Origin: Paenibacillus senegalimassiliensis
GTDB taxonomy: Bacteria; Bacillota; Bacilli; Paenibacillales; Paenibacillaceae
Length of the DNA stretch: 64,000 nucleotides
Assembly: GCF_001486585.1 (NCBI RefSeq)
Contig: NZ_LN909034.1
Coordinates: forward strand, 1 to 64,000
Direction: 5' to 3'
Under the pieces are notes generated by a model. The model was not told the origin of the DNA and did no database searches. It was given only the letters and a program-made list of their open reading frames with translations. How positions within the stretch are numbered: position 1 is the stretch's first letter; every line of letters begins with the position of its first letter. Shown here piece by piece: positions 60,956-63,257 of this stretch. The translations under genes and the position numbers were made by a program.

Positions 60956-61939
60956 TTACCGCAATCCTTCCACCGCAATCACGAATTGCTCCACACAAAG
61001 CTGGGCATTCATATGCTGGCGAAGCTTCTTCTTGCCTTCCGCAGCCAACGCCATCGCATCAATCCATTGTTCTGCGCTTAGCGAAGATGCGTGCCGGTTA
61101 ATAAATTCAAGCTCATCTATGAAAACGATCTGATCATGTTTATGATAGAGCGCATGGATCATATCCTTAAACCACAAATGAAAAAGATTAAACAACATGT
61201 CCAAATGATCGGATAACCCGGATTTGAACAATTCTTGTTGTGCAGTAATTAATGGAGAACCGCCACGGCCTGCGATTTCCTTCCCTAATTGTAACACTAC
61301 GTTTCTAATTTCTGCAAACCAATTCTGTTTGATAAGATCACGGCACGATCCTAGTCCTGCCGCAACATGAACAGCACTTCGTGCTAATGTTGGCGAAAAT
61401 CCCTCATCCGCCAAAATCTGGAGCATACGCCCTGGATCAAGTGGTGAAAATGGGACCCACTGCGAACGGGATTGAATGGTCGGCAACAAGGCCCGTCCAT
61501 TATCGGACAATAGAATAGCAACTGCTGGAGAAGGGGGCTCCTCCAGGAACTTCAGCAAGCTGTTAGCTGCCTGAACCGTCATCTTGTCCGCTTCGTCGAT
61601 AATATAGGCTTTCGGATTACCACTCTCCGAACGATATGAGAAAATCCGCTGCAATTGGCGGATTTGTTCTATTTTAATCGTAGCCCCGTCAGGCTTTACC
61701 GTAAATAAATCTGGGTGGTTGCCATGCAGCACCTTGCGGCACTCCAGACATTCTCCACATGCGTCGTCGTTCTCGCCCTGAGTGCAGAACAACGCCTGGA
61801 CGAAAGCCATGGCCATTTCCATTTGCCCACTTCCAGGCGGTCCGCTAAACAGATAGGCATGAGATATTTCCTGGCGCCGCAGGCTGCTTTGCAGCAGTTG
61901 CTTCGCCGTATCCTGCCCGATGATATTCTGGAATGACAT
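60956..61939 (-). CDS. holB: DNA polymerase III delta-prime subunit
   Basis: Clamp-loader subunit, 327 residues. The AAA+ fold begins FQNIIGQDTAKQLL and includes the four-cysteine zinc module (Cys52, 61, 64, 67) and the SRC-like arginine region in LLPTIQSRSQWVPF. The P-loop reads GPPGSGQM (residues 33-40): the Walker A lysine is glutamine. Delta-prime often lacks ATPase activity, so this loss is tolerable but notable. It is followed by about 150 bp without a convincing gene before ricT. Confidence 0.95.
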   Translation of the reverse strand: MSFQNIIGQDTAKQLLQSSLRRQEISHAYLFSGPPGSGQMEMAMAFVQALFCTQGENDDACGECLECRKVLHGNHPDLFTVKPDGATIKIEQIRQLQRIFSYRSESGNPKAYIIDEADKMTVQAANSLLKFLEEPPSPAVAILLSDNGRALLPTIQSRSQWVPFSPLDPGRMLQILADEGFSPTLARSAVHVAAGLGSCRDLIKQNWFAEIRNVVLQLGKEIAGRGGSPLITAQQELFKSGLSDHLDMLFNLFHLWFKDMIHALYHKHDQIVFIDELEFINRHASSLSAEQWIDAMALAAEGKKKLRQHMNAQLCVEQFVIAVEGLR

Positions 61940-61972: not shown

Positions 61973-62416
61973 CTAGAAACAAAGATTAATCAACATGCCG
62001 CGAATCTCACCGATCTTCTGCAGCAGTTCAATTTTGCCCTGCTCCGTCTCCAGCAGTTCCTCTGCCATGGCAAGCAGCGCCGAATCCACCTCATCCAACA
62101 GCTTATAGCGTTTCCCCCGGCCGCGGCGATCCCAGCCCTTCGATTCCTTAATGGTCACGCCTCTCCGGACAGTATCCTCAAGGAACCGCTTGACCATCAA
62201 TCTATAGGCCTTCAGTTCACGAACCGTCATCGACTTAGCCAGCCGATCGCCTTGCATCTGAATCTCCTTGAATTTGCGGTTCAATTCCTCTTGTGTGGCC
62301 TGATGCCCATGCTGCTGCATCACATCCGAGAAGCTTTTGGATTGCACCGGTTTGGCAGGGCTTTCGCTTACTCCCAACCCACTTTTGAGCGGCCGATATC
62401 CCGGATCAATTTTCAA
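61973..62416 (-). CDS. yaaR: DUF327 protein YaaR
   Basis: Conserved Firmicute protein of unknown function, 147 residues from the TTG at 62416 (GGTGG upstream), close to the B. subtilis 146. It is a mostly helical, charged protein with the DUF327 signature FRKFKEIQMQGDRLAKSMTVRELKAYRLMVKRFLEDTV and the basic WDRRGRGKRYKLLDEVD segment. GTG codons 9 and 12 bases further upstream are alternative starts. It normally lies directly after yaaQ, but here repeats intervene. Confidence 0.9.
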   Translation of the reverse strand: MKIDPGYRPLKSGLGVSESPAKPVQSKSFSDVMQQHGHQATQEELNRKFKEIQMQGDRLAKSMTVRELKAYRLMVKRFLEDTVRRGVTIKESKGWDRRGRGKRYKLLDEVDSALLAMAEELLETEQGKIELLQKIGEIRGMLINLCF

Positions 62417-62451
62417 AGCCCTCACCACCTATTCTTAAATATAGTATATTC

Positions 62452-62516
62452 GTTCAAGATTCGACGCCGATTCCACTCCCTGAATCTTCTTCGTGGTTGG
62501 AAGCTGTATTTTAGAT
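62452..62516. mobile_element. Truncated copy of the MITE-like element
   Basis: A 65-bp fragment that resembles the last third of the complete elements that follow. It differs from them by several substitutions and a one-base indel, so it is older. It ends in the same 13-bp terminal repeat (CTGTATTTTAGAT, 62504-62516), followed by the same 17-bp spacer found between the complete copies. Confidence 0.7.
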
Positions 62517-62533
62517 GACCTATTCCAATGAAG

Positions 62534-62700
62534 ATCTAAAATACAGGTTACTAGCACCAAGAAGGTTGGACGATACCAGGGACTGAGCAGCGCAGCGTAG
62601 GTAAATCCTACGTGAGCAGCGCAAGGCGCGGGTAGAGTTCAAGATTCGACGCCGATTCCGCTCCCTGAATTCCTTCGTGATCGGAAGCTGTATTTTAGAT
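62534..62700. mobile_element. MITE-like element, complete copy 1 (167 bp)
   Basis: Bounded by perfect 13-bp terminal inverted repeats ATCTAAAATACAG (62534-62546) and CTGTATTTTAGAT (62688-62700), with weaker similarity extending about 15 bp inward. The interior holds the hairpin CGTAGG/CCTACG and a duplicated GAGCAGCGCA. No transposase is encoded. Flanked on both sides by the same 17-bp sequence (62517-62533 and 62701-62717). Confidence 0.8.
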
Positions 62701-62717
62701 GACCTATTCCAATGAAG

Positions 62718-62884
62718 ATCTAAAATACAGGTTACTAGCACCAAGAAGGTTGGACGATACCAGGGACTGAGCAGCGCAGCGTAGGTAAATCCCACGTGAG
62801 CAGCGCAAGGCGCGGGTAGAGTTCAAGATTCGACGCCGATTCCGCTCCCTGAATTCCTTCGTGATCGGAAGCTGTATTTTAGAT
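62718..62884. mobile_element. MITE-like element, complete copy 2 (167 bp)
   Basis: Second complete copy, differing from copy 1 at one base (near 62795) and bounded by the same terminal repeats (62718-62730 and 62872-62884). It ends four bases before the yaaQ stop codon. Near identity points to recent tandem duplication or repeated insertion. The tandem period is 184 bp. Confidence 0.8.
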
Positions 62885-62888
62885 TTCC

Positions 62889-63257
<369 letters not shown>

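Follow-up and report, generated by a model that had tools for sequence, protein, structure and literature searches.

A MITE-like repeat family with a covarying branched fold in Paenibacillus, and its probably old tandem array between yaaQ and yaaR

The repeat array between yaaQ and yaaR

The window, i.e., the whole 64-kb stretch of Paenibacillus senegalimassiliensis DNA analysed here, encodes yaaQ with tmk upstream and yaaR with holB downstream, and a repeat array lies between yaaQ and yaaR (Table 1). The + strand of the window is antisense to both genes. The ORF that we call yaaR presumably deserves this name on the basis of gene order. Located at 62452-62884, the array is the sole tandem array in the whole window, with a period of 184, 2.3 copies and 97% matches (TRF). 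The initial annotation described a truncated copy followed, at a period of 184-185 bp, by two units of 167 bp that have perfect inverted ends of 13 bp and one base difference between them, and all of these features were recovered. Both 167-bp units end in ATCTAAAATACAG and CTGTATTTTAGAT, and they differ by a single base (T at 62609, C at 62793). The truncated copy matches the unit over 62452-62516, with 92% identity to unit positions 104-167. The placement given for the array, between the yaaR start and the yaaQ stop, was also correct: yaaR likely starts at the TTG at 62414-62416, 36 bp from the array, and the far end of the array is 4 bases short of the yaaQ stop codon (62889-62891). The yaaQ-yaaR spacer is lengthened to 472 nt in this genome, and by eye the yaaR ribosome-binding site survives.

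A 17-bp spacer, GACCTATTCCAATGAAG, is identical between the array copies, as had been noted, and its description can be refined. Because the ends of other family members extend past the 13-bp repeats, the element ends in the array would, by analogy, also fall outside these repeats. The spacer would then consist of 4 bases of right tail, the 5-bp sequence TATTC and 8 bases of left tail. The array is bracketed by a TTAAA direct repeat, the right copy of which contains the yaaQ stop codon. The pair is a putative 5-bp target duplication or, as one short match, could be a chance occurrence.

Table 1. Features of the yaaQ-yaaR locus, in window coordinates
Feature	Position	Strand	Basis
holB, DNA polymerase III delta prime	60956..61939	-	TIGR00678 above cut-off
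yaaR-like gene, likely TTG start	61973..62416	-	ORF; without NCBIfam match
Left TTAAA, putative 5-bp target duplication	62435..62439		Equals 62889-62893; family duplications 5 bp, mostly TNNNA
Truncated copy: 62452-62516 and tail, preceded by about 12 bases of uncertain origin	62440..62520	+	Unit match; breakpoint common to G048, G013 and G021
5-bp junction TATTC between copies	62521..62525		Identical to 62705-62709; position inferred from other members' ends
Full copy A (13-bp inverted ends; core 62534-62700)	62526..62704	+	Model R2, 169.4 bits
5-bp junction TATTC	62705..62709		Identical to 62521-62525
Full copy B, core 62718-62884	62710..62888	+	Model R2, 167.4 bits; core 1 base off copy A
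Right TTAAA, putative target duplication, holds yaaQ stop	62889..62893		Equals 62435-62439
yaaQ / darA, cyclic di-AMP receptor	62889..63218	-	NCBIfam NF058593, 175 bits (cut-off 140)

A dispersed repeat family in the genome

Searching the genome and related genomes with the unit, as the initial annotation had proposed, revealed dispersed copies. A sequence search with one 167-bp unit found 45 matches in the P. senegalimassiliensis genome (40 of 97 candidates scored). A covariance model from 45 copies of this and related genomes identified at least 93 copies (E ≤ 1e-3), a lower bound because 150 of 1867 candidates were scored. Model R1 was built on the weaker strand and set aside, and the scores of the window copies are those of model R2. 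Ninety of the 93 copies lie outside predicted ORFs. The elements are mostly about 170-250 bp in length, with most of the 93 copies at 166-250 bp, and matches group by length (73-106, about 168, about 205 and 230-250 nt), many long-form matches beginning inside the element. Three identical copies occupy separate loci on contigs C10, C14 and C15, with flanks that have only TATAA in common.

Typical copies end in GTGCGTGTTCAAAAAGTC...GACTTTTTGAACAACCTC or close variants. The end motif GTGCGTGTTCAAAAAGTC / GAGGTTGTTCAAAAAGTC, with up to 2 mismatches, occurs at 206 sites versus 4 for the reversed control. An exact 5-bp target duplication, typically TNNNA, was detected at 18 of the 62 copies with canonical ends, compared with a mean of 2.07 and a maximum of 6 in 300 shuffles; the offset used was the best of 100 tried, the shuffles were evaluated at that offset only, and the analysis excluded 31 of the 93 copies, which lack canonical ends. 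The family therefore has three features of MITEs: it is short, non-coding and dispersed, it has terminal inverted repeats, and it makes a target duplication of a fixed 5 bp.

Genes flank 89 of the copies on both sides, and of these copies 27 lie between co-directional genes in sense and 27 in antisense orientation, 20 lie between divergent genes and 15 between convergent genes. The even sense/antisense placement argues against a general role of the copies in transcripts. In each of the four gene contexts, genes lie closer to the element's right end (medians of 35-44 nt) than to its left end (85-117 nt), an effect that comes partly from long forms whose match begins inside the element. The long forms (L007, L011, L062, L065 and own copies of 205-250 nt) have, by eye, apparent extra hairpins at fixed places of the fold, e.g., near CATATGCTTTCGAAGTATG and AAGCGTTTTGAAAAAACGC. 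At the other extreme are mini-elements of about 50-75 bp that comprise little more than the two inverted ends (L186:2078-2126, L187:2031-2081, L181, L182 and L183). Among these five, read by eye, two have exact 5-bp duplications (L182 and L187). If mini-elements transpose as such, the inner fold would not be needed for this.

The ends of the subfamily found in the window differ from the conserved family ends, so the mobility of this subfamily itself is only putative. It was found at just two loci, in P. senegalimassiliensis and in its relative G048 (40 candidates scored in each), and a narrow pattern designed for it had no match in named genomes.

Distribution across Bacilli

Of the 296 genomes in a sample of the order, 120 have a match to the model (P. 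senegalimassiliensis among them), as do 19 of 48 genera; these counts are lower bounds, obtained with stricter filters and 9 candidates scored per genome. In a sample of the class, 39 of 398 genomes have a match, 14 of them outside the order. Ten of the 14 belong to one genus (f32/g69), one to f33 and three to f51, the last four being weak. Eighteen copies from f32, f6 and a further genus were read; their interiors differ, but the ends are in most cases identical or similar to those given above.

Among named genomes, a pattern for the family core had 99 matching stretches; of the 80 that were listed, 79 are from Paenibacillus. The remaining listed match (L255, JAIRVH010000087.1) is on a contig labelled as a Sphingobacterium MAG that carries a Paenibacillus repeat, and is probably misbinned. 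Two plasmid records, both from Paenibacillus, were the sole plasmid matches by blastn, with none among plasmids of Bacillus cereus, and there was no family match in phages. Nothing exceeded the Rfam gathering score for the window stretch or for 11 related loci. Neither by name nor by end sequence was the family found in the open-access papers searched, where the end sequence retrieved one unrelated primer paper. Judged from these Rfam and open-access literature searches only, the family is apparently undescribed.

A conserved branched fold

The units had been proposed to fold into large RNA hairpins, and their capacity to fold strongly is borne out. On either strand, one unit folds better than expected by chance (z -3.60 and -3.57; 0 of 200 shuffles as good in each case), and the transcript strand of the array does so too (-140 kcal/mol, z -3.1). 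The 45 copies share a branched structure of 56 pairs in which 95.1% of cells are paired, a percentage that is biased upward because the structure was derived from the same sequences. When the partner is slid by one column, pairing falls to 46-48%. Double changes occur in 23 of the 56 pairs, and the 183 doubly changed cells compare with 46.7 in shuffles (0 of 500 as high), although related copies inflate covariation counts. One interior pair is UA in 20 copies, GC in 11, CG in 8 and AU in 6, and is broken in none of the 45; in the alignment of the other strand it has the top covariation score of all column pairs. Covariation thus exceeds both the shuffles and the slid controls, as would be expected of a structured RNA, although the element may act as RNA or as DNA.

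The two strands differ in predicted stability. RNAalifold gave -75.5 for the window + strand and -53.2 for the other strand, and mean energies in the 45 copies were -61.6 vs -51.8 kcal/mol. The + strand folds better in 85 of 87 copies from this genome and in 17 of 18 from elsewhere. However, the same is true of 82 of 87 shuffled copies, and the mean strand difference is -12.8 for real copies and -8.8 for shuffled ones. The energy advantage is thus mostly due to base composition, and we do not treat it as proof. Among one-sided changes, G-U exceeds A-C by 29 to 10 on the window + strand (12 to 2 for common ones), which leans to that strand, with a bias because the structure was derived on it.

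History of the locus

The yaaQ gene is present in 40 of 40 genomes of the genus, and we read the 30 best-scoring yaaQ-yaaR spacers. Two full copies and a truncated one occur in P. senegalimassiliensis and in G013, one full copy and a truncated one in G048 and in G021, three copies in G010 and one in G047. There is a chimera in G020, a deleted form in G045, and a long form with a fragment in G007. In a yaaQ+yaaR tree (30 of 40 species), these nine carriers form one clade (support 0.997). At the yaaQ stop codon, members of this clade have 0-3 full copies along with truncated or rearranged ones. Read by eye, P. senegalimassiliensis, G048, G013 and G021 share one end point of the truncated copy, TCGAATCTTGAAC (a variant in G048). 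Because the truncation point is common to all four, the array is ancestral to them.

These results rule out a recent insertion as the recent event that the near identity of the two units had suggested: the element or parts of it are at the same position and orientation across the nine species. What can be recent is only the latest step of tandem doubling, or a homogenisation, that left the two units nearly identical. At a second locus, C14:85441-85982 (L126), next to a gene that we take from its translation to be fabH-like, this genome has another array of the window subfamily, comprising a truncated and two full copies. The corresponding sequence in G048 is a single truncated copy, which implies that copies were gained along one of the two lineages or that the array collapsed in the second.

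In 18 of the 30 spacers, which are 23-98 nt in length, there is no model match and no full element. Short end-like remnants were noted in G006, G040, G039 and perhaps G023, and such remnants in species without the element raise the possibility that the spacer was hit earlier or repeatedly. The spacers of G004 (298 nt) and G001 (231 nt) are long and have no model match. A tenth carrier, G053, is placed outside the nine-species clade. Its 291-bp element (L065) lies between TTTAG repeats and is a weak long-form match (49.9 bits), and the sisters G022 and G005 (L063, L064) have an empty site at this insertion point.

The empty site also bears on whether the array is a purely local minisatellite that never moved. 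The initial annotation held that relatives with the same array would point to a fixed local repeat, and this is half right, in that the tandem array is indeed old and a whole clade has inherited it at this locus. The unit, however, is mobile: with 93 dispersed copies, target duplications, identical copies at different loci and the empty site, a local origin is refuted for the family as a whole and is scarcely credible for the array.

Tandem growth

Neighbouring copies at a spacing of 184-187 bp are head-to-tail in every case listed. In P. senegalimassiliensis they comprise the window copies, those on C14, and C15:380392/380576 (184 bp), with C15:1492993/1493203 as a longer form at 210 bp. Among the relatives, G117 has a run of four copies at exactly 184 bp and G055 one of three at 185 bp. 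Tandem pairs occur in G042, G045, G047, G165 and G007, and arrays in G010, G011, G020, G021 and G013. Inverted pairs exist at wider spacing (L249 and L293, gap of about 323 bp). For 92 copies, a flank scan allowing 4 mismatches found a sequence resembling the right end immediately upstream in 13 cases and one resembling the left end immediately downstream in 3, two of these in known pairs, together with two weak head-to-head cases. Junctions retain about 5 bp between element ends. Because all neighbours listed at 184-187 bp are head-to-tail, duplication of the element plus 5 bp, or insertion of a joined dimer, probably fits better than independent insertions.

In combination, these observations make it probable that a MITE-like mobile repeat inserted here long ago and that its copy number has since changed in tandem. 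The elements would have been moved in trans by a transposase that cuts with a 5-bp stagger, and tandem copies would have arisen by duplication of the element together with 5 bp. At yaaQ-yaaR they would be inherited passengers that lengthen the spacer.

Rare and propagated changes in the fold

The number of copies permits a test that is rarely possible, in which rare changes are compared with propagated ones. The test used 55 copies of 164-171 nt out of 91 aligned matches, the others being dropped for length or as duplicates, and an alignment that was fitted to the structure. Changes in 1-3 copies have about equal frequency in paired columns (68 in 112) and unpaired columns (35 in 55), and the pair is broken by 39 of the 68, where about 63% is expected for random single changes. 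Changes in four or more copies occur at a lower rate in paired columns (47 in 112) than in unpaired ones (36 in 55), and of the 47 in paired columns, only 9 break the pair and 26 are double changes. Rare and shared changes thus differ in pair-breaking (Fisher p 5e-5, or 6e-4 with each double change counted once). Because rare changes break pairs about as often as chance and widely shared ones mostly keep them, the fold seems, on this sequence evidence, to matter for propagation rather than for the yaaQ-yaaR operon. It would be needed by the lineages that keep multiplying, not by the host operon.

Copies at the locus itself were also compared with one another (gapped pairs left out). When copy B is compared with the copy in G048, 8 pairs have changed and 7 of them are broken in one of the two, with a similar density of changes in paired (8/112) and unpaired (6/63) columns. 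Against the copy in G021, 15 pairs have changed, 8 by double changes, and the two G013 copies differ at 14 pairs, 7 by double changes. Close copies decay while deep differences are compensated. The paired changes among distant copies at the locus weigh against a fold that serves propagation and not the operon; they could reflect co-evolution in place or replacement by other subfamilies, and we infer that the deep differences derive from source subfamilies.

These comparisons also address the alternative that host selection has kept the array as a functional RNA element of the yaaQ-yaaR-holB transcript, e.g., an attenuator, a spacer or a processing site. We consider this improbable. Among the distant copies, the high share of double changes would suit such a role, but the closest orthologues, P. 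senegalimassiliensis and G048, have nearly all of their changed pairs broken on one side and are no less altered in paired columns. Retention of the element or parts of it by all nine species of the clade is in its favour, as is the better-than-chance fold of the transcript strand. Against this, several carriers have deleted, chimeric or interrupted forms, most of the spacers read are short and have no full element, and relative to genes, copies of the family occur in both orientations. The possibility of a terminator within the array was rejected, as no terminator-like site was found there. Two weak promoter-like sites were predicted on the + strand, where 1.3 are expected. The earlier proposal that the hairpins change the expression of yaaR-holB finds little support, given the absence of orientation bias relative to genes and the near-chance rate at which rare changes break pairs.

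A different alternative is that the element moves via a single-stranded folded intermediate, RNA or ssDNA, with the fold of one strand as the mobility substrate, as proposed for REPINs. In integron cassettes, a folded single strand is the substrate of mobility. The strong covariation in interior helices far from the ends is consistent with this, as are the pair-keeping shared changes with their pair-breaking rare counterparts and the apparent whole hairpins that longer forms add. The excess of G-U over A-C on the + strand points the same way, but was counted on the strand from which the structure was derived, and the energy gain of that strand is mostly compositional. Moreover, the 5-bp duplications resemble those of an ordinary DDE transposase, and Y1 transposases do not track the element. 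On balance we regard such an intermediate as rather unlikely. Somewhat more doubtful still is the composite proposal that these are miniature elements across several Bacilli orders whose spread requires the 170-nt branched fold of one strand, combining a structured RNA or ssDNA intermediate with 5-bp target duplication and head-to-tail tandem growth.

The test of rare against propagated changes points to a structure selected in multiplying lineages more than at the host site. It makes the question of what the fold of a MITE does directly testable, and it cautions against reading such hairpins as regulators of operons without further evidence.

The search for a transposase partner

In 1.73 Mb of partly overlapping DNA, no long element was detected that has the same ends together with matching duplications. 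Likewise, no transposase with matching ends was found at the three PF01609 (DDE_Tnp_1) loci of this genome or at the best 30 PF05598 (DUF772) loci of the genus, one insertion sequence being in both sets. On C15, at about 209.9-211.4 kb (L171, L199), there is an insertion sequence with a 623-aa open frame and ends AAGGGGCTGTCCRAAAAGTC, which we take to be IS1182-like. Its ends match the right end of the repeat, GAGGTTGTTCAAAAAGTC, at 14 of 18 positions, but they are not equal and this copy has no clear target duplication, and for these reasons it was rejected as a proven partner. A DUF772 match is absent from the element-bearing genomes G013, G020, G007, G015 and G023. Two transposase genes of equal score (C13:118877-119623 and 923683-924429; L169, L170) have 18-bp ends, CAATGTCATTAAGTTAAG, and one of them is near a contig end.

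We also rejected a RAYT-driven system, because Y1 genes do not track element content in the genus. P. senegalimassiliensis has only a broken Y1 gene and the element-bearing G013, G021, G011, G015 and G007 have none, whereas the element-free G018 has 20 matches; G010, G020, G045, G047 and G048 have both.

The initial view of the units as a non-autonomous mobile element therefore stands in part: the family is dispersed, non-coding and MITE-like, with inverted ends, target duplications and an empty site in a relative, and the partial search for a transposase found none. It works like a MITE, and we call it MITE-like rather than a strict MITE because the three defining features are present and the partner was not found.

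Comparison with known repeat systems

ERIC and other enterobacterial MITE-like repeats are intergenic, can fold in transcripts and have modular insertions. The present element resembles them by description only and has no Rfam match. A further parallel comes from plasmid repeats of Borrelia, which are reported to show compensatory changes (PMC2674063).

The bcr1-bcr3 repeats of the Bacillus cereus group (group A repeats) are described as short intergenic mobile repeats that are structurally and functionally MITE-like; a strain has on average 39 copies of bcr1, in two strains 40-51% of the bcr copies are in transcripts, and mobility is tied to a 5-base TTTAT motif (PMC6542083, PMC3446304). The present family is likewise short, intergenic, mobile and MITE-like, but it spans several families and orders, a comparison with bcr1 that is by description only. 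REPINs are described as small mobile units with conserved ends and compensatory hairpin changes, with REPs in tandem arrays (PMC3116915). The present family shares the conserved ends, the compensatory changes and the tandem arrays, and differs from REPINs as described there in its far larger branched fold, its 5-bp target duplications and the lack of a consistent link to Y1 transposases. In behaviour, bcr1-bcr3 and REPINs come closest to it.
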